This document shows, one piece after another, positions 3,944 through 60,606 of a stretch of 64,000 nucleotides of DNA. The notes beneath the pieces are model-generated. The model was not told where the DNA came from. It worked only from the letters and a program-made list of their open reading frames with translations, and made no database searches. The stretch comes from Solwaraspora sp. WMMA2065 (GTDB taxonomy: Bacteria; Actinomycetota; Actinomycetes; Mycobacteriales; Micromonosporaceae): positions 6,324,001-6,388,000 of the forward strand of contig NZ_CP128361.1 of assembly GCF_030345075.1 (NCBI RefSeq). The letters are read 5' to 3'. Position 1 is the stretch's first letter. Every line of letters starts with the position of its first letter. Position numbers and translations under genes: made by a program.

Positions 3944-4442
3944 TCAGGGTCGCCGGAGCCGGACGGCGACGAAGGACGGCGACTGGCACAGCTTGTGGTA
4001 GGCCGCCTCGTCGACATCACGGAGACTGGGCACCGGGCGCGGTTCGACGAGCCGCTCCAGGCGCAAGCCGGCGTCCAGCAGCTCGCCCAGGAACGTCTCC
4101 AGCGTCATCCGTTGATAGTGGATCGACATCTGCCCGCCGGCCAGCGAAAGGTCCACCCAGTCGTCGGCGAAGTACGAGCCGCCGAAGTGTCGCCAGTCGG
4201 CGGTCGGGTGGGTCGTGGAGACCAGCAGCCACCCGCCCGGCCGGAGCACCCGTCGTAGCTCGCCGAGTAGCTGTCGCGTAGTGCCCGGCCCCGCAGCCGA
4301 CGTCGAGGATTCGCTGCCCGGCGACGTCCCCGGCGAGGGCGACCATCGCGGGCCGGTCGACGTAGGCGTTGTACGGGCTCGTGTCGGCGTGTCGGGCGAA
4401 GTGGTCGCCGAGCTCGTCGTGGTAGGCGGTGCGGGCGGGCAT
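3944..4442 (-). pseudogene. SAM methyltransferase pseudogene (internal deletion and frameshift)
   Basis: Two fragments of one class I methyltransferase lie in different minus-strand frames. The N-terminal piece starts at ATG 4442 and reads YHDELGDHFARHA and then motif I ILDVGCGAGHYA. The C-terminal piece begins LLGELRRVLRPGGWLLVS and runs to the stop at 3944. They meet near 4271-4279, where motif I is joined almost directly to the post-motif VLRPGG. The ~60-70 residues normally between these motifs are missing and the frame shifts. A working enzyme is therefore unlikely unless a sequencing or assembly error is responsible. Confidence 0.8.
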
Positions 4443-51250: not shown

Positions 51251-51277
51251 TCAGCTGATTGTCAGCGGCTCCCCAGG
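51251..51277 (+). promoter_or_regulatory. TCAGC direct-repeat operator before the response regulator
   Basis: TCAGC at 51251, TCAGC at 51262 and CCAGG at 51273 are spaced by exactly 11 bases, one helical turn, as expected for an OmpR-family binding site. It lies 33-60 bases upstream of the response regulator start. The same array occurs before the htrA gene (53628-53654), which suggests autoregulation. Confidence 0.6.
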
Positions 51278-51300
51278 CCGAACCCAGACCGATCCGGGAT

Positions 51301-51320
51301 GATGCGGTCATGACCGCATC
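51301..51320. promoter_or_regulatory. Perfect 20-bp palindrome spanning the regulator start codon
   Basis: GATGCGGTCA joined directly to TGACCGCATC. The palindrome includes the ATG at 51310 and would form an operator or a start-codon hairpin in the mRNA. Confidence 0.5.
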
Positions 51321-52011
51321 GCAGACCGAGGCGAAGCTGCTCGTCGTCGAGGACGACCCGAACATCCTCGAACTGCTCTCCGCCAGTCTGCGGTTCGCCG
51401 GATTCGACGTCACCACCGCGACCAGCGGCAGCGCCGCGCTCAACGCCGCCCGCGAGCGCCGGCCCGACCTCGTGGTGCTCGACGTCATGCTGCCCGACCT
51501 GGACGGCTTCGAGGTGATCCGGATGATGCGGGAGGCCGGCACCCGTACCCCGGTGGTCTTCCTCACCGCGCGGGACGCCACCGACGACAAGATCCGCGGG
51601 TTGACCCTCGGCGGCGACGACTACGTCACCAAGCCCTTCTCGCTGGAGGAGCTGACCGCCCGGATCCGGGCGGTGCTGCGGCGTACCAGCAACGGCGGTC
51701 AGATCTCGTCCCGGCTCACCTTCGCCGACCTGGAGCTGGACGAGGAGACCCACGAGGTCTACCGGGCGGGCAACCGGGTGCAGCTGTCACCGACCGAGTT
51801 CAAGCTGCTGCGCTACCTGATGCTCAACGCCAACCGGGTGCTGTCCAAGGCGCAGATCCTCGACCACGTGTGGAACTACGACTTCCGGGGCGACGACAAC
51901 ATCGTCGAGTCGTACATCTCGTACCTGCGCCGCAAGATCGACAACACCCAGCCCCGGCTCATCCACACCCTGCGTGGCGTCGGCTACGTGCTGCGCAAAC
52001 CAGCGGCGTGA
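51310..52011 (+). CDS. OmpR-family response regulator (MprA-like)
   Basis: A 233-residue regulator: receiver domain (KLLVVEDDPNILELLSASLR, Asp in LVVLDVMLPDLDGFEVI, Lys in YVTKPFS) and winged-helix C-terminus (VQLSPTEFKLLRYLMLNANR, VESYISYLRRKID, LIHTLRGVGYVLR). Gene order regulator, kinase, HtrA protease is the same as mprA-mprB-pepD in mycobacteria, where the system answers envelope stress. Its stop overlaps the kinase GTG. Confidence 0.93.
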   Translation: MTASQTEAKLLVVEDDPNILELLSASLRFAGFDVTTATSGSAALNAARERRPDLVVLDVMLPDLDGFEVIRMMREAGTRTPVVFLTARDATDDKIRGLTLGGDDYVTKPFSLEELTARIRAVLRRTSNGGQISSRLTFADLELDEETHEVYRAGNRVQLSPTEFKLLRYLMLNANRVLSKAQILDHVWNYDFRGDDNIVESYISYLRRKIDNTQPRLIHTLRGVGYVLRKPAA

Positions 52012-53624
52012 GCAGGCCGACGCTGGCGCCCGCCCCGGTGACGGGCTGGCTGCGCGGCGTACCGCTGCGGGTCAAGCTGGTCACGTCGGTGCTCAGCCTG
52101 GTCCTCACCGCGCTGCTGGTGATCAGCGTGAGCAGCGCGTTCTTCCTGCGCAGCTACCTGGTCGACCAGATCGACACGGACCTGCGCGACTACGTCGTGA
52201 AGCTGCGCGAGGAGGTCAGCAACGCGCAACGCCTGCCGGTGTGGGACCAGCCAGCTTCGGTGGACGCCCCGCTGCCGACCAACTACCTGGTGGTCGTCTC
52301 GTACCAGGACGGCCCGATCGGCGGGCCCTACTACGACGACGACCGGATCGCCACCGGCGAGCTGCCGCGCTGGCCGGCCGACTGGGACGGCTTCGCCGCG
52401 CTGCAGGGCGAGCCGAAGACGGTGTACGCCCGCAACGGCGCCCCACGCTGGCGGATGCTCTACGCGTCGCTGCCCACCGGCGACGTCATCGCGGTCGGGC
52501 AGAGCCTCGTCGACGTCGACCGGGCCGTCAGCCGGCTGGTCTGGATCGACATCCTGGTCGGCATCGGAGTGGTGACGCTGCTGGCACTGGCCGGTGCCGC
52601 GATCGTACGGACCAACCTGCGGCCGCTGGTCGAGATCGAGCAGACCGCGGCGGCCATCGCCGCCGGTGACCTGAGCCGGCGGGTGCCCGACCCGGAGCCG
52701 GGCGTGCACGTGCCGCAGACCGAGCTGGGCCGGCTGTCCCGCACGCTCAACGCGATGCTGACCCAGATCGAGGCGGCGTTCACCGCGCGGGCGAGCTCCG
52801 AGTGGGCGGCCCGGATGGCTGAGGCGTCGGCCCGGGAAGCCGCCGTCGCGGCCCAGTCCTCGGAGACCCGGGCCCGCCGGTCCGAGGAGCGGATGCGCCA
52901 GTTCGTCGCCGACGCCTCGCACGAGCTGCGCACCCCGTTGACCACCATTCGCGGCTTCGCTGAGCTGTACCGGCAGGGGGCCGCCGCCGCGTCGCCGCAG
53001 GAAGCGGCCCGGCTGGTCCGCCGGATCGAGGACGAGGCGGCCCGGATGGGTCTGCTGGTGGAGGACCTGCTGCTGCTGGCCCGCCTCGACCGGGAACGCC
53101 CGTTGGATCTGGCGCCGGTCGAGCTGCCGGTGCTGGCCAGCGACGCGGTGCAGGCGGCCCGGGCGGTCGACCCGCAGCGCCGGGTGGAGCTGGACATCGG
53201 GCCCGGTGCCGGCCGGCTGGTCGTGCTGGGCGACGATGCCCGGCTGCGTCAGGTGATCGGCAACCTGATGACCAACGCGATCAACCACACTCCGGCCGAC
53301 ACGCCGGTCACTCTGCGGTTGCGAGCCACCGAGCCGGGGTTCGCCACGGTCGAGGTGGCCGACGAGGGGCCCGGTCTGACCCCGGAGCAGTCCGAACGGG
53401 TCTTCGAGCGGTTCTACCGGGCCGATGCCGCCCGTACCCGCAGCACGGGGCGGCCGACCGGCACCGGACTCGGGCTGGCGATCGTCGCCGCCCTTGTCGC
53501 CGCCCACTCGGGCACCGTCGAGGTGCACAGCGAGCCCGGCCGGGGCGCCACCTTCCGGGTCCGGCTTCCGCTGGCCGACACGGACCTCGCCGACTCCGAA
53601 TCCATCGACGACAGCGAATCATGA
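52008..53624 (+). CDS. Sensor histidine kinase (MprB-like)
   Basis: A 538-residue membrane kinase: TM1 (VKLVTSVLSLVLTALLVISV), an extracytoplasmic domain (~60-165), TM2 (ILVGIGVVTLLALAGAAIV), a HAMP segment, the H-box VADASHELRTPLTTIRGFAE, N-box NLMTNAINHTPAD and ATPase G-boxes VADEGPGLTPEQ and GTGLGLAIVAALVAAH. GTG 52008 overlaps the regulator stop. Presumed to sense envelope or surfactant stress by analogy with MprB. Confidence 0.93.
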   Translation: MSRPTLAPAPVTGWLRGVPLRVKLVTSVLSLVLTALLVISVSSAFFLRSYLVDQIDTDLRDYVVKLREEVSNAQRLPVWDQPASVDAPLPTNYLVVVSYQDGPIGGPYYDDDRIATGELPRWPADWDGFAALQGEPKTVYARNGAPRWRMLYASLPTGDVIAVGQSLVDVDRAVSRLVWIDILVGIGVVTLLALAGAAIVRTNLRPLVEIEQTAAAIAAGDLSRRVPDPEPGVHVPQTELGRLSRTLNAMLTQIEAAFTARASSEWAARMAEASAREAAVAAQSSETRARRSEERMRQFVADASHELRTPLTTIRGFAELYRQGAAAASPQEAARLVRRIEDEAARMGLLVEDLLLLARLDRERPLDLAPVELPVLASDAVQAARAVDPQRRVELDIGPGAGRLVVLGDDARLRQVIGNLMTNAINHTPADTPVTLRLRATEPGFATVEVADEGPGLTPEQSERVFERFYRADAARTRSTGRPTGTGLGLAIVAALVAAHSGTVEVHSEPGRGATFRVRLPLADTDLADSESIDDSES

Positions 53625-53627
53625 TTT

Positions 53628-53654
53628 TCAGCAAAACCTCAGCCGCAAATCAGG
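53628..53654 (+). promoter_or_regulatory. TCAGC direct-repeat operator before htrA
   Basis: TCAGC at 53628, TCAGC at 53639 and TCAGG at 53650, again with 11-base spacing, in the short gap between the kinase stop and the htrA start. It matches the array before the regulator, so the response regulator likely also drives htrA from its own promoter. Confidence 0.65.
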
Positions 53655-53686
53655 TGCGTCAAAGTGCCGGGGGGCAATCTGAGTAC

Positions 53687-55228
53687 ATGAGCGAGCACGA
53701 GACCACGCCGCCGGCGGAGCCGTCGGACAAGGCTCAACCGCCGGCCAGCCCTTGGCAGGCCCCGGCTGGGTCGGGCCAGCCCGACCCGGCCGCCGGGCGT
53801 CCGTCCACCGACTGGACGCCGACCAACCAGCCGTACGCCGGCTCACCCGCACCGGCTCAGCCCGCGCCCAACTCACCCGCACCTGAGGCTCCCGCGTCTG
53901 TGACTCCCGCGTCTGTGACTCCCGCGCCCGAGGCACCCGCGCCCGAGGCACCCACGTCGGCTCAGCCGGTCACCGGAGCGCCGCTCAGCGGCCAGCCGCA
54001 GGCCGGCCCGTACGCTCCCGGCTACGCCCAGGTGTCGTACGGGCACGGGCAGTGGAGCCACGGCCAGCCGTACGCTGGGCACGGCTACAGCCAGCCGCAC
54101 GTCAGCTGGTCGCCGCCGCCCGGTGCCGCCGCCCAGGCCGGCGCACAGCCGCCGCCGAACCGGCTCGGTCGGATCGTCGCCGGCTCGGCGGTCGTCCTCG
54201 CCCTGATGCTCGGCTCCGGTGCGGTCGGTGGTGCGGTCGTCGCCGCCTTCGACAACGGCGGCGCGGCGCCAGCGGTGCAGACCGGCAGCAACGGTGGCGG
54301 CAGCGCGGCACCGGTGATCGACCGCTCGTCGCTCGCCGAGATCGCCGACGCCGTCCAGGACAGCGTGGTGTCCATCTCCACCGGCTCCGGTGAAGGCTCG
54401 GGTGTGGTGCTCAATGCCGAAGGCTTCATCCTGACCAACAACCACGTCGTCGAGTCGGCGCGCGGCGGATCGGTCACCGTGTACTTCGCCGACGGCGGCT
54501 CCGCGTCCGGCGGCGTGGTCGGCACCGACGCGCGCACTGACCTGGCCGTGGTCAAGGTCGACGACGTGGACGGGCTGTCCCCGGCGACCCTCGGCGACAG
54601 CAGCACGATGCGGGTCGGTGACACCGTACTGGCCCTGGGCAGCCCGCTGGGTCTGCAGGGTTCGGTGACCGCCGGGATCATCAGCGCGCAGGACCGCACC
54701 ATCTCGGTGGGTGGCGGCCAGCAGCAGAGCCCGTTCGGCGGCGGGGGCCAGGTCAGCTCGATGTCCGGGCTGTTGCAGACCGACGCCCCGATCAACCCGG
54801 GGAACTCCGGTGGCGCCCTGGTCAACACCAACGGTGAGGTGATCGGCATCAACACGGCGATCGCCACCTCCGGTCAGGGCGAGGGCAACATCGGGGTCGG
54901 CTTCGCGATCCCCAGCAACAAGGCCAACGACGTGGCCGAAGCGCTGATGGCCGGCGAGGAGGTCAGCCACCCGTACCTCGGAGTGAGTGTGACCGCGGCT
55001 GACGAAGGCGGCGCGTTGATCGCTGCGGTCGAGGACGGCAGCCCGGCCGACCAGGCTGGCCTGGCCCAGGGCGACGTGGTCGTGCGGATCGGCGACACCC
55101 CGGTGAACGACTCGGATGATCTCGTCGCGGCGGTGCAGTCCGGCCAGGTCGGGGAACAGATCGAGATCACCTACGAGCGCGACGGCGAGGCGCGGACCGC
55201 CTCCGCGACCCTGGTCGACGCGCCGTGA
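53687..55228 (+). CDS. HtrA/DegP-type serine protease (PepD-like)
   Basis: A 513-residue protein: a long disordered Pro/Ala/Gln N-terminus (with duplicated PASVT and PAPEA units), one membrane helix (VAGSAVVLALMLGSGAVGGA, ~residue 165-185), a trypsin-like domain with His (ILTNNHVVESA), Asp (TDARTDLAVVKV) and Ser (INPGNSGGALVN), and a C-terminal PDZ domain (HPYLGVSV...DQAGLAQGDVVVRIGD). The protease domain is extracytoplasmic and handles misfolded envelope proteins. ATG 53687 (MSEHETTPP) is chosen over 53621, which overlaps the kinase stop without a ribosome site. Confidence 0.94.
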   Translation: MSEHETTPPAEPSDKAQPPASPWQAPAGSGQPDPAAGRPSTDWTPTNQPYAGSPAPAQPAPNSPAPEAPASVTPASVTPAPEAPAPEAPTSAQPVTGAPLSGQPQAGPYAPGYAQVSYGHGQWSHGQPYAGHGYSQPHVSWSPPPGAAAQAGAQPPPNRLGRIVAGSAVVLALMLGSGAVGGAVVAAFDNGGAAPAVQTGSNGGGSAAPVIDRSSLAEIADAVQDSVVSISTGSGEGSGVVLNAEGFILTNNHVVESARGGSVTVYFADGGSASGGVVGTDARTDLAVVKVDDVDGLSPATLGDSSTMRVGDTVLALGSPLGLQGSVTAGIISAQDRTISVGGGQQQSPFGGGGQVSSMSGLLQTDAPINPGNSGGALVNTNGEVIGINTAIATSGQGEGNIGVGFAIPSNKANDVAEALMAGEEVSHPYLGVSVTAADEGGALIAAVEDGSPADQAGLAQGDVVVRIGDTPVNDSDDLVAAVQSGQVGEQIEITYERDGEARTASATLVDAP

Positions 55229-55929: not shown

Positions 55930-58900
55930 GTGACGGTCGTCGAGACCAGGATGAGCGTGTGGGAGGCCCTGGCCGGCCGGGCACCGGGCCAGCCGGTCGC
56001 CCCGGCCGACGCCGGGCTGTGGGGTGCCGTCGTCGAACGGCTCAACCCGGCCCGGGCCCGGCCGGTGCTGCGGCCCGGTATCGAACACGTCGAGCTGACC
56101 TCGGTACGCGGGATGCCGTACGTGATGCTCCGCTCGCCGGACGGTCGCGGCGGTGCCTGCTACCTGCGGCTGGCCTCGGACGAGTGGCGGCTCGCCCAGC
56201 TGATGGACGGCAGCCGCACGGTGGCCCGGTTGGTCGCGGAGTTCGCCCGGATCGCCGGCCGGCTTGCCCCCGACCAGGTCACCCGGGTCGTCGCCGATCT
56301 GGCCGGCAACCGGATGCTCGCCGAGCTGCCGGTCGACGCGTTCCGCCCGCTGGCCCGGGTGCACCGCCGGCCGTGGCCGTTGCGGTTCGGCCGCACCCTG
56401 CTGGCCGTGGCGCAGGGCCGGCGTACCGTGCTGGCCGACGTCGACCCGCTGGTCGGCGCCCTCTACCGGGGCGGCGGCCGGTTCCTGTTCACCCGGCTGG
56501 CGGCGGTGCTGCTGGCCGTCGTCGCGCTGGCCGGGTTCGCCGCGTTCTGCTGGACCTGGTGGCGCGGCGAGCAGGCAGTCTTCCTCACCGGCGGGTCGTA
56601 CGCGGCCGGCGCGGCGGTGCTGCTCGGGTTGAACGTGGTTGCCCTCGCCTGCCACGAACTCGGCCACGCCCTGGCCACGAAACACGCCGGCCGGCGGGTG
56701 CCGGCCGCCGGCTTCCTCATCTATTTCGGCATCCCGTCGGTCTTCGTCGACACCACCGACGTCTGGCTGGCCGGTCGCCGGCAACGGCTGATCACCACCG
56801 CCGCCGGGCCGGCCGCCGGGCTGGTGCTGGCCGGCGTCGCCGGCATCGTCGGGCTGATCTTCCCGGCCGCCGCACCGTGGACGTTCAAACTCGCCTTCGC
56901 CTGGTACCTCAACGCTCTGTTCAACCTCAATCCGTTCCTCGCCCTCGACGGCTACTACCTGTTGATGGACTGGCTGGAGATCCCGAATCTGCGTACCCGT
57001 GGCCTGGCCTACGTCGTCGGCCGGCTGCGCCGGCGCGGCCCGCGCTGGTCGGCGCTGGACCGGGAGGGCAGGCTGGTCGCCCTGTACGGGACGCTCGCCG
57101 TGCTCTGGGTGGTCATCGCGGTCAACCTGTTCTGGCGGATCTGGACCGACCGGGTCGCCGGCCTGGTCCTCGGCCTGTGGCGGTCCGGGTGGCCGGCCCG
57201 GCTGCTGCTCGCCGCGGTGGTCGCCGGCCTCGCCGCCCCGCTTGTCTACCTGGCAGCCGGCTGGCTGGCCCAGCGCTGGCGGCGGCTGCGCGGCGCGCTC
57301 GCCGAGCGGCGGCACGCCAGCGACACCCCACGGCGGCTGGACGCGCTGCGTGCCAGCGCGCTGCGGACACTGCCGGCCAGCGCGTTGAACCGGCTCGCCG
57401 CCCAGGCGCGCTGGGTGCACCCGCGTACCGGTCAGCAACTCGTCGCCGCCGGCGCGGCCCAGCCGGCGGTCTACGTCGTGGTCGACGGCGCGGTGGAGGG
57501 CCGGGCGCCCAGTGACCCGGCCGGCACGGTCCGGCAACGGCTCGGGCCGGGCGGCCTGGTCGGTCTGGCCAGCGCCCTGACCGGTACGCCGGCCACGCTC
57601 ACCTGGCGCACCGCCGGTACGACGCTGCTGGCGGTGCCGCCGACCGCGGTCGCCACGGTCGTCGGCCCGCTGCCCGGTCCGCCGTCGACCGACCGGACCG
57701 CCGCCGAGTCGCTGTTCGCCGAGACCCCCGCACTGTCCGGGCTGACCCCGGAGGACCGGCTGGGGCTGGTGTCCCGGGCCCGGCCGGTGACGTTGCCGCC
57801 CGGCGCGCCGGTCCGGCTGTCCGGCCCGTACGACGCGGTGGTCCTCGAATCGGGTGTGATCGCCCTGATGGACGGCCTCGAACTGCGCCGGGGCACAATG
57901 ATCGGCCCGGTCGGTGCCGATCCGCCGGACGTGGTCGCGACCACCCGTACACAGACCCGGCTGTGGCAGTTGCCGGCCGTCGCCGGGCTGCCGATGCTGC
58001 TCGGCGCGGCGCCGTCGCAGGTGGCCGAGGCCGCTGCGGCGACGGTCCGCGGCGGTCCGCCGACCAGCGGCGTGCATCCGCCCGCCGACTATCCGCCGCT
58101 GGCCGCCCCGCCCGGCCCGCCACCACCGGGGGACACCGACGACCGGGTGGACCGGCGGTTCGAGCGCCGGCTGTGGTGGCTGGTGCTGCTCCTGCTGCTG
58201 TTCGCGTTGCTGATCAGCGGCGGCAACCTGCTGCCCGGGCCGGCCTGGGCGGAGATGCCGGCCGACCGGGCGCTGCTGCGGGCCGAGCGGGGCACCGTCG
58301 AGGTGCGCACCGCCGGTGGGCGGCTGTTGACGTTGCGCGATGGTGCGGCGGCATACGTCGCCGAGGGGGACCGGATCGAGGTCGCCGACCGGTCGGCCGG
58401 TGAACTCGTCTTCCGGGGCGGGGCCGCCACGGTGCTCTGCGCCTGGGTCGAAGCCGAGGTGGGGGCGCTGTGGAGCGACGGCACCCGGCCGGTCGCGCCC
58501 AGCGGGGAGCTGACCCTGGACCGGGGCCGGATCCTGGCCGACACTGCCAGCGTCTCCGGTGCCTTCCGACCGTTGGCGATGACCGTGATCAGCCAGGACT
58601 CGGTACTGGCGAACCGGGGCGAGGCCTGGTTCGCGGTGAACGCCGGAACGGCCCGGGTGTCGCTCGGTGAGGTACGGCGCAACGGGGTGTCCCTGCGGGC
58701 CACCGGGGAGCAGCTCGGCTGCGGTGACGGCCAGGTCGTCGACCCGCCCGGCGGTACGCCGAGCGCCCCCGCTCCGGGCGCTACCAGCGGATCGCCGACG
58801 GTGCAGAGCCCGTCGCCGGATCTTTCCGCGACCAGCCAGCCGACGCCGGTCCCGGCGCCGAACCCCGGCGTGACTCGCCAGCCGCAGCCGACTACCCCGA

Positions 58901-59421
58901 CCGCGCAGCCGAGCCCGCCCGGCCCGCCGCCGACCAGCGCCCCGGCGCCGACCACGGCAGCGCCGACGACCGGTCCGCCGACCGGTACGCCACTGGAGAC
59001 CACGGCGCCGCCGACCACCGCCCCACCGCCGACCACCGCCCCACCGCCGACCACCGCCCCACCGCCGAATGAGCCTCCGGTGATCGGCTGGGAGATCGAG
59101 CCGCAGGGCCCGATCACCCTGGTGACCGATAACGGGCCCTGCAGCGACTACCCGAGCAGCGTGCGTTGGATGGTCGTGGTCTCGGACGACTCGCCTGCCG
59201 GGTTGACCGTCGTCGCGCGGTACAGCGGGTTGGTGGAGCGCGTGGAGACCTTCCGTGGTGCGGGGACACACGAGGGCACCGTCGGCCCAGTGGCGTCCAA
59301 CGAGTCGATCGGGACCGGGTCCGTGACGATCACGGTCACCGTCACGGACAGTGGCAAGCTCAGTCGGCAGGTGAGAAGCGATGTATTGGTTGTCGGCTGC
59401 GCGTTCGGCGAACAGACGTAG
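55930..59421 (+). CDS. Multidomain membrane protein: PqqD-like, M50 protease, cNMP-binding-like and FecR-like domains
   Basis: A 1163-residue fusion. Residues ~76-135 (YLRLASDEWRLAQLMDG, LVAEFARIAGRLAPDQVTRV) look like a PqqD-type peptide-recognition domain. Residues ~185-445 form an M50 metalloprotease: zinc motif HELGH at 242-246, with NLNPFLALDGYY at ~332-343 providing the third ligand. Residues ~485-580 and ~600-700 resemble two degenerate cyclic-nucleotide-binding folds. A single membrane helix (LWWLVLLLLLFALLIS) lies at ~748-763, then a FecR-like domain (~780-940), a Pro/Thr linker (~950-1060) and a C-terminal domain with two Cys. GTG 55930 has GGAGGAG upstream. It may recognise and cut or export a peptide, then report it across the membrane; this is inference. 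Confidence 0.85.
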   Translation: MTVVETRMSVWEALAGRAPGQPVAPADAGLWGAVVERLNPARARPVLRPGIEHVELTSVRGMPYVMLRSPDGRGGACYLRLASDEWRLAQLMDGSRTVARLVAEFARIAGRLAPDQVTRVVADLAGNRMLAELPVDAFRPLARVHRRPWPLRFGRTLLAVAQGRRTVLADVDPLVGALYRGGGRFLFTRLAAVLLAVVALAGFAAFCWTWWRGEQAVFLTGGSYAAGAAVLLGLNVVALACHELGHALATKHAGRRVPAAGFLIYFGIPSVFVDTTDVWLAGRRQRLITTAAGPAAGLVLAGVAGIVGLIFPAAAPWTFKLAFAWYLNALFNLNPFLALDGYYLLMDWLEIPNLRTRGLAYVVGRLRRRGPRWSALDREGRLVALYGTLAVLWVVIAVNLFWRIWTDRVAGLVLGLWRSGWPARLLLAAVVAGLAAPLVYLAAGWLAQRWRRLRGALAERRHASDTPRRLDALRASALRTLPASALNRLAAQARWVHPRTGQQLVAAGAAQPAVYVVVDGAVEGRAPSDPAGTVRQRLGPGGLVGLASALTGTPATLTWRTAGTTLLAVPPTAVATVVGPLPGPPSTDRTAAESLFAETPALSGLTPEDRLGLVSRARPVTLPPGAPVRLSGPYDAVVLESGVIALMDGLELRRGTMIGPVGADPPDVVATTRTQTRLWQLPAVAGLPMLLGAAPSQVAEAAAATVRGGPPTSGVHPPADYPPLAAPPGPPPPGDTDDRVDRRFERRLWWLVLLLLLFALLISGGNLLPGPAWAEMPADRALLRAERGTVEVRTAGGRLLTLRDGAAAYVAEGDRIEVADRSAGELVFRGGAATVLCAWVEAEVGALWSDGTRPVAPSGELTLDRGRILADTASVSGAFRPLAMTVISQDSVLANRGEAWFAVNAGTARVSLGEVRRNGVSLRATGEQLGCGDGQVVDPPGGTPSAPAPGATSGSPTVQSPSPDLSATSQPTPVPAPNPGVTRQPQPTTPTAQPSPPGPPPTSAPAPTTAAPTTGPPTGTPLETTAPPTTAPPPTTAPPPTTAPPPNEPPVIGWEIEPQGPITLVTDNGPCSDYPSSVRWMVVVSDDSPAGLTVVARYSGLVERVETFRGAGTHEGTVGPVASNESIGTGSVTITVTVTDSGKLSRQVRSDVLVVGCAFGEQT
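59013..59066 (+). repeat. Three tandem 18-base repeats in the Pro/Thr linker
   Basis: GACCACCGCCCCACCGCC is repeated at 59013, 59031 and 59049, encoding Thr-Thr-Ala-Pro-Pro-Pro units of the extracellular linker. The copy number may vary between strains. Confidence 0.85.
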
Positions 59422-59445
59422 ACATCGATCCGAGCGGAGATACAG

Positions 59446-59661
59446 GTGCTTTGTTGGTTCTGTCCGAAGGCGGCGCGGGGTGGCTGCCGGTTCTGCGGTC
59501 GAGGCGTGTGTGAGGACCACGCCCGCTTCGGTCCGTATCTGCTGGAGGTGCACCGGTCGGAGCGGCGGGGACGGGCGGAAGGGCTGGTCGTCGAGGACGC
59601 GTTGCAGTGCGGCACCTGCCGGCCCAGGCCGCAGCCTGTACCAATGCCGGAGCTGGACTGA
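59446..59661 (+). CDS. Small cysteine-rich zinc-finger-like protein
   Basis: A 71-residue protein: VLCWFCPKAARGGCRFCGRG, CEDHARF and later QCGTCRPRPQ, giving three CxxC pairs plus a Cys/His, enough for one or two zinc sites. GTG 59446 lies 24 bases after the fusion protein stop, so the two are probably co-transcribed. No named family; an adaptor within the same system is possible. Confidence 0.7.
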   Translation: MLCWFCPKAARGGCRFCGRGVCEDHARFGPYLLEVHRSERRGRAEGLVVEDALQCGTCRPRPQPVPMPELD

Positions 59662-59766
59662 TCGAGGAGACGTCCGGTCACCGGCGACCCGCGCCGGACG
59701 CCGCCGGGCTCGTGGCGGATTGTGGCCCCGGACTACCCTGGAGCGACATCGACGAGGGGACCGGTG

Positions 59767-60606
59767 ATGAGTGACTTCGACACCGCGCTCGAACGCCTGC
59801 TGACCGACCCTGGATTCGCCGCCGCGCTGGCCGCCGACCCGACTGCGGCGCTAGCCGGCTATCAGCTCACCGCCGAGGAGCAGGAGCTGCTGCGGACCCA
59901 GATGGGCGGTGCCGGGGGCGGCTCGACGGCGGCGGTGGAGACGCGGGCGAACCAGTCCAGCGCGTTCGGGCTGCTGAGCCCGTTGACCGGGATGATGGGC
60001 GGCTTCGGCGACATCGGCGCGGCGGCCGGTGCCGTCGACGAGGCTCTCGGCTCTGCCGGTGCGCAGAGCGGCTTCGGGCCGGCCGGTGCACAGAGCGGCT
60101 TCGGGCCGGCCGGGTCCGGCGGTGGGTTCGGTTCGGCCGGGGAAGACAGCGGCTTCGGGGCACGGCCGGAGGGCGCCGGTCCGCCGGTGCCGGACCGGTC
60201 CGCCGGGCTCGGCACGGCACCCCAGCCGGTCGAGCCGGCGGTGCCGGAGGACTACCGGACCCGGGTGGACGTCGACGGCGACGGCGAGTGGGACCGGCAC
60301 ATCGTCCGGGGACGGGCGGACGGCGGGGTGGACATACTGGTTGACCAGGACGGCGACGGTCGGGCCGACTTCGTCGGCCGGGACGACGACGCCGACGGTC
60401 TGGTCGACTCCGCGGCGTACGACACTGACGGTGACGGGTTCTTCGAGCAGACCCATTATGACGACGACGGCGACGGGTGGCTCGACCGCAGCGTCACCAA
60501 CCAGCCCCCGCCCACCGGACCACCCCCGCCCACGCCGCCATCCCCGCCCCCGGCCGGCGGCGGGCTGATCGGCGACAACCTGCGGCTTCCCGAGGAACTG
60601 CGCTGA
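59767..60606 (+). CDS. Protein with RiPP-leader-like N-terminus and Asp-rich calcium-type repeats
   Basis: A 279-residue protein. Residues 1-45 (FDTALERLLTDPGFAAALAA, DPTAALAGYQLTAEEQELL) form a helical domain resembling LigA-type or Nif11-like leader domains that recognition domains bind. A Gly/Ala/Ser/Phe-rich segment follows, with two 27-base repeats at 60055-60108 encoding AGAQSGFGP. The C-terminal third has four or five DxDGDG units (DVDGDGEWDRH, DQDGDGRADFVG, DTDGDGFFEQ, DDDGDGWLDRS) like EF-hand or thrombospondin type-3 calcium loops. The end is Pro-rich. ATG 59767 has GAGGGG upstream. It could be the substrate or partner of the PqqD-M50 protein; no secretion signal is visible. Confidence 0.75.
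   Translation: MSDFDTALERLLTDPGFAAALAADPTAALAGYQLTAEEQELLRTQMGGAGGGSTAAVETRANQSSAFGLLSPLTGMMGGFGDIGAAAGAVDEALGSAGAQSGFGPAGAQSGFGPAGSGGGFGSAGEDSGFGARPEGAGPPVPDRSAGLGTAPQPVEPAVPEDYRTRVDVDGDGEWDRHIVRGRADGGVDILVDQDGDGRADFVGRDDDADGLVDSAAYDTDGDGFFEQTHYDDDGDGWLDRSVTNQPPPTGPPPPTPPSPPPAGGGLIGDNLRLPEELR

Follow-up and report, generated by a model that had tools for sequence, protein, structure and literature searches.

What does a membrane protease act on when its own chain also carries a peptide-recognition domain, two cyclic-nucleotide-binding folds and a FecR-like domain? The question is raised by a 1163-aa M50 protein encoded in a 64,000-nt stretch of Solwaraspora sp. WMMA2065 (NZ_CP128361.1, positions 6,324,001–6,388,000; the whole stretch is called the window below), one of a set of hosts that we take to be soil actinobacteria. 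A sequence-only reading had proposed that the PqqD-like domain of this protein binds the leader of a calcium-repeat partner encoded two genes downstream, a leader of the type found on ribosomally synthesized and post-translationally modified peptides (RiPPs), that the M50 core cuts it off, and that the freed protein is exported or sensed at the surface. Comparison of related loci indicates that protease and leader-tagged partner probably work together, because the active site decays in the lineage that lacks the leader. Labels beginning with L denote loci or fetched stretches and those beginning with G denote genomes; papers are cited by their PubMed Central (PMC) number. The features needed first are these, in window coordinates:

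55930–59421, + strand: 1163-aa protein with PqqD/RiPP recognition element (RRE)-like, M50, two cyclic-nucleotide (cNMP)-type, transmembrane (TM), FecR-like, Pro-rich linker and Ig-like parts
56470–57279, + strand: M50 membrane protease core, residues ~181–450
56653–56667, + strand: HELGH zinc motif, residues 242–246
56944–56952, + strand: LDG motif, residues 339–341
59767–60606, + strand: partner of 279 aa, comprising NHLP leader, linker and Ca-loop protein
59767–59904, + strand: Os1348-type NHLP leader of short helices, residues 1–46 (NF038399 match; fold matches)
59935–59970, + strand: conserved linker motif VExR...SSxFG, residues 57–68, a candidate recognition or cleavage region
60244–60498, + strand: Ca-loop (DxDxDG) strand-repeat domain

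The window and 118 fetched stretches gave 119 loci, 113 of them usable. HExxH was intact in all 57 loci with a leader-bearing partner, and each of the 18 whose Ca partner lacks a leader had it broken (REYAR, REWAR, HELAR, HELSR, RELGR, REFAR); a further 38 loci had no adjacent partner, 30 with the motif intact and 8 with it broken. Among the latter 38 were L079 and L110, scored as partnerless at the M50 locus, with a leader-bearing partner elsewhere in their genomes. None of the six truncated loci that were dropped contradicts the 57/57 count: L059, L072 and L105 read HELGH in genomes with a leader match, and L119 (HELGH), L140 (HEAGR) and L111 (motif unreadable in a stretch of N) lie in genomes without one. 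Three leader-bearing loci with a shortened M50 frame, L038, L039 and L045, were kept in the count; they belong to one genus (g30), and their frames end early, at 651, 911 and 789 aa stop to stop. Two genomes, G063 and G068, hold one leader-bearing and one leaderless copy each, with the HExxH state matching the kind of copy. A second intact protease in the genomes with leaderless Ca partners was considered and rejected: each has one such place, apart from G063 and G068, where the additional copy is the leader-bearing one.

The phylogenetic background was drawn from quick trees with Shimodaira–Hasegawa-like approximate likelihood-ratio (SH-aLRT) support only, on which parsimony rates are rough; outgroup L139 was omitted from the second tree. 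The 18 leaderless-Ca loci grouped with two partnerless ones (SH-aLRT 100), and the sister group of this clade comprised 26 partnerless loci; both subclades were recovered when M50 columns were left out of the tree (support 97 and 100). Leader loss at the locus was inferred three times (3, 5 and 46 rows), with HExxH intact in both small groups. All His losses fell within the 46-row leaderless clade, H246R once and H242 to R, Y or Q at least four times; the probability that every loss would lie in leaderless branches, by proportion of branch length, was 0.018 for five events and 0.008 for six. One clade might simply have lost leader and catalysis independently, the substrate of the protease being unrelated to the partner: the loci with leaderless Ca partners all belong to one clade, the His losses share one larger clade, HExxH is kept in many partnerless loci, and an independent-pairs test, with 4 usable pairs and no power, was not significant. 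Such a coincidence is nevertheless very unlikely in our judgement, given that His was lost at least five separate times where the leader is missing and never along the larger branch length of leader-bearing loci, and given that the paralogues within G063 and within G068 form matched pairs.

Which parts of the protein relaxed along with the active site bears on what the other domains are for. These remaining parts are:

56062–56349, + strand: PqqD/RRE-like domain, residues ~45–140 (NF041824 profile match and structure model)
57313–57999, + strand: two degenerate cyclic-nucleotide-binding folds, residues ~462–690
58141–58224, + strand: single TM helix preceding the FecR-like domain, residues 738–765
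58255–58734, + strand: FecR-like beta domain, residues ~776–935 (weak profile matches in 4/22 members, and model)
59080–59394, + strand: Ig-like C-terminal domain, residues ~1051–1155 (strands in model; Big_13 in 1/22 members, E 0.061)

Changes were counted per site and per unit of branch length, and the rate in the 46-row clade was divided by that in leader-bearing branches. On the tree without M50 columns the ratio was 4.5 at the HELGH helix, 3.3 near LDG and 2.0 over the whole M50 core, as against 1.0 for the PqqD-like domain and 0.8 for the cNMP-type folds; the first tree gave the same picture, and residues 45–140 ranged from 0.73 to 1.01 across analyses. By 30-residue segments the peak lay at 241–270, reaching 6.2 in one subclade and 5.3 in the other; rates rose again at 721–780, the juxtamembrane and TM segment (2.0–3.7), with smaller rises elsewhere in M50, at 121–180 (1.2–2.1) and in the FecR-like part (1.2–2.0). 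Segments of the PqqD-like domain scattered, from 0.76 to 1.45 inside 61–120 (1.45 being 61–90 in one subclade) and 1.6–1.7 at 121–150. Among columns invariant in the 57 leader-bearing loci, the leaderless-Ca clade shows variation at 7 of 40 in the PqqD-like domain, with no column changed in ≥90% of its members; in the M50 core 45 of 94 vary and 8 are changed in ≥90%, including H246. This relaxation centred on the active site, taken with the motif counts, supports a coupling of M50 catalysis to the leader, as had been proposed. The same data led us to drop the idea that the PqqD-like domain is there to bind the leader, since its rates are not raised without one; it is also present, together with the zinc-finger gene, in four distant loci, L147–L150, with no leader or Ca match in their fetched flanks. 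It and the cNMP-type domains seem to be maintained by some other role, although the former may also touch leader or linker.

Two results weigh against the proposed pairing. The TM segment relaxes together with the active site, which would fit self-cleavage too, and for 24 of the 30 intact partnerless loci the genome has no NF038399 match at all, so that the protease may have other substrates. One rival account is regulated intramembrane proteolysis, in which M50 would cut either the FecR-bearing TM helix of its own chain or some other membrane protein, releasing the cytoplasmic PqqD/cNMP part as a signal, with the Ca protein as ligand or regulator. A FecR-like domain is here fused to a site-2-type protease, and E. 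coli RseP cleaves FecR (PMC8144685); juxtamembrane residues 721–750 and TM residues 751–780 are the ones that relax; genes for a response regulator, a histidine kinase and HtrA stand upstream in 18/21 loci; and HExxH persists in the 30 loci without an adjacent partner. Alone, however, this account leaves unexplained both the active-site decay in the leaderless lineage and the joint loss of leader and linker motif, and the proteins of L149 and L150 lack TM and FecR yet keep HELGH; we think it unlikely. The leader might otherwise be a permanent docking domain, never removed, that tethers the Ca protein to a membrane complex; the protease would then have decayed because the complex was lost. Its modelling as an ordered helical domain agrees with this, as does the description of structured NHLPs engaging their enzyme through protein/protein contact (PMC12455567). 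Relaxation is nonetheless centred on the active site and TM segment, and the PqqD-like domain, cNMP-type folds and Ca partner are still constrained in the leaderless-Ca clade, where neither complex nor role is visibly lost, which leaves permanent docking quite unlikely.

Cleavage of the tagged partner is the reading we favor, with moderate confidence: the leader would dock the partner, the M50 site would cut in the linker, and the Ca domain would be freed. Its basis is observed, namely gene linkage, leader family, catalytic His loss tracking leader loss, and active-site-centred relaxation. The 1163-aa protein would then be a membrane-embedded, RRE-bearing processing protease of site-2 type with the NHLP-tagged Ca-domain protein as its main substrate. 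The folded helical leader would offer the docking surface, the cut would fall in the disordered stretch after it, probably in or near VExR...SSxFG, and the products would include linker plus Ca-loop domain. Because constraint on the PqqD-like and cNMP-type domains persists where leader and catalysis are gone, these domains presumably have another task as well, the simplest candidate being to hold the zinc-finger protein conserved alongside them; the FecR-like ectodomain may relay envelope or Ca2+ state to the protease via the TM helix. More tentatively, and as a possibility rather than an expectation, a RiPP-style pair of leader and RRE protease may have been recruited to mature a resident Ca-binding protein, not a natural product, as an envelope-tied switch; in one lineage the partner would have been trimmed and its mature form made directly, with a pseudoprotease scaffold still working and the zinc-finger protein, not the leader, as PqqD ligand. 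The two lineages offer a clean evolutionary pair, in which an intact protease goes with a tagged substrate and a dead one with a substrate already trimmed, and which substrate belongs to an orphan site-2-type protease becomes directly testable.

The partner bears out what had been read from its sequence. Its leader passes NF038399 (40.8 and 43.4 bits in two scans, cut-off 40), stays below the cut-off of PF14407 (26.9 vs 48 bits) and, when the model is compared with solved folds (VIA-align), resembles 6lk7 at modest Z. In that model the leader is an ordered helical domain, the linker is disordered, and strands rather than helices flank the Ca loops. Leader-bearing partners are 222–613 aa long (n = 57), and all 57 have a VExR...-type pattern; VExR occurs in 0/18 leaderless ones, all of which have a W[S/A]EFG-type sequence near the start (a slightly looser pattern is found in 10/57 leader-bearing partners). 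DxDxDG-type loops number 3–6 per protein in 57/57 leader-bearing and 3–5 in 18/18 leaderless partners, and many of their Asp and Gly positions are invariant across both kinds in a 40-sequence alignment. Up to 8 of the 40 have EF-hand Pfam matches; the loop motifs are those of EF-hands, and the predicted strands would not form a helix-loop-helix. A RiPP precursor, with short core and adjacent modification enzymes, is not what was found, and no maturase was recognised among the six window genes searched. Since leader and VExR are lost together with Ca-loop residues kept, the simplest reading is that leaderless species encode the mature partner form directly. A hidden leader upstream of the leaderless partners was considered and dropped on the one locus worked through, L082, where the zinc-finger open reading frame ends at ~3977 and the partner starts at 3996, leaving no room for one. 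Export of the Ca protein was dropped: TM-like stretches are absent from all 57 leader-bearing and 18 leaderless partners, the downstream ABC gene resembles a MalK/UgpC-type importer ATPase, and no peptide exporter was recognised among the six window genes searched.

Between protease and partner lies the small zinc-finger-like gene noticed earlier:

59446–59661, + strand: 71-aa Cys-rich zinc-finger-like protein

Its seven Cys and one His (C3, C6, C14, C17, C22, H25, C55, C58) are invariant in 100/100 copies adjoining the M50 gene, as are P68, E69 and D71 of the PELD tail. Identity is 73–99% across 107 family genomes, and the protein passes no family cut-off in Pfam or NCBIfam. It may be held by the PqqD-like domain, and a family of unknown role gains a clear companion. 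At L098 and L100, the second copies in G068 and G063, the gene is unmatched, and (L/I)PELD is read in the frame that precedes the leaderless partner; the resemblance to the end of the zinc-finger protein suggests a deletion. In L157 (3687–4817, G349) the zinc-finger gene and a leader-bearing partner are adjacent with no M50 profile match beside them, the M50 copy (HELAH) lying elsewhere, at L110.

The domain order assigned to the 1163-aa protein held up, albeit with a weak FecR match. HELGH, LDG and hydrophobic segments between residues 190 and 443 mark a site-2-type M50 protease (PF02163, 21.8 bits vs a cut-off of 27.2, thus below it). For the RRE-like/M50 fusion, the NF041824 profile aligns from residue 74 and the order of secondary structure agrees in the model. 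The cNMP-type domains have the cyclic-nucleotide-binding fold; by eye they lack the Glu and Arg of the phosphate-cassette motif, both of which are present in L149. PF04773 (FecR) has no match in the window protein at E ≤ 1 and does not reach its gathering score there; weak matches occur in 4/22 family members (best E 0.0045). Match lists from VIA-align and Foldseek on the full model were filled by the cNMP part, PDB sequence searches gave weak matches only, and no RNA element or sigma-70-type promoter was found at the locus. The conserved N-terminus reads VETR at residues 4–7 (55939–55950), the same four letters as the partner linker motif, probably by chance.

Genes searched around the M50 gene encode HtrA, an SRPBCC-like protein, the zinc-finger-like protein, the partner and the ABC ATPase. 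One scan of genome contigs gave 21 loci, in genera presumably of the Micromonosporaceae; the upstream trio (window 51259–55228) is lacking in L006 and L017, and L004 has little upstream sequence. We take the trio to be reminiscent of the mycobacterial MprAB-PepD envelope-stress locus. Across 354 family genomes, a 90-aa PqqD-region query (E ≤ 0.001) matched 117, 115 of them strongly (weak: G104, G143), and the zinc-finger gene was found in 109 (107 strongly). The expected co-occurrence was there: 105 of the 115 strongly matching genomes have both, and a leader/Ca partner adjoins the protease in 57 loci. G071 and G101 have the zinc-finger gene without a PqqD-region match. NF038399 matched in 98 genomes, above cut-off in 42 of these, and the Ca domain in 118 at 1e-8, some without an M50 match, so this domain also occurs apart from the M50/leader system.

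Beyond the family, weak matches came from 5 of 394 genomes of the class. One of the five, L151, had no M50 profile match and was dropped; in the other four, L147–L150, a gene for a PqqD-M50-cNMP protein is followed immediately by the zinc-finger gene. The 16–17 kb fetched around them, the part of their genomes searched, gave no match to the leader or Ca profiles, and we read this as what looks like an older unit of PqqD-M50-cNMP and zinc finger, to which leader-Ca partner and TM/FecR part were added later. The proteins of L149 and L150 stop after the cNMP domains; that of L147 continues into a peroxiredoxin-like domain, and directly before its gene lies a relative of ATP-grasp peptide maturases (TIGR04187, E 4e-49, 167/350 bits). 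A Crp-type regulator is encoded downstream of the zinc-finger gene in L149 (9675–10346) and L150 (7319–7972), which suggests that the intact cNMP domains there sense cyclic nucleotide.

Set against known systems, L147–L150 share the order PqqD-M50-double cNMP and the adjacent zinc-finger gene with the window, and differ in cNMP domains far above the Pfam cut-off (E 5e-28 to 9e-40 in L147, L149 and L150, the three scanned). The layout had been thought undescribed. That stands for the cNMP/FecR extension with zinc gene and Ca-domain partner, of which no description was recognised in searches of the open-licence PMC literature, and not for RRE-fused site-2 proteases, known from daptide MpaP and assigned there to leader removal (PMC10036551). 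MpaP (NF041824) likewise fuses an RRE/PqqD-type region to M50, the profile covering residues 74–432 (E 2.8e-37); the window protein scores 128.8 bits against an equivalog cut-off of 300, adds two cNMP-type folds, TM, FecR-like and Ig-like parts, and has a 279-aa Ca-loop protein as partner. No daptide biosynthesis gene was recognised among the window genes searched, and a daptide cluster was dropped on score and context. M50-type peptide processing is also described for EpeP, TglG and TmoG (PMC10885120) and for TmcP (PMC13252029); the YydH/EpeP/LiaK family (NF058609) matches weakly (E 5.9e-11, 42.5 bits vs 225), and the window genes searched include no epipeptide gene. RseP and FecR of E. coli pair the same two kinds of domain, which here are fused in one chain; none of the adjacent genes searched encodes a sigma factor. 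The leader is close to those of Os1348 and Franean1_4349 (NF038399, PF14407; PMC7726476), but it precedes a long linker and Ca-loop domain instead of a short core, and none of the window genes searched was recognised as encoding a modification enzyme; the locus points to leader-guided membrane proteolysis used outside natural-product biosynthesis.
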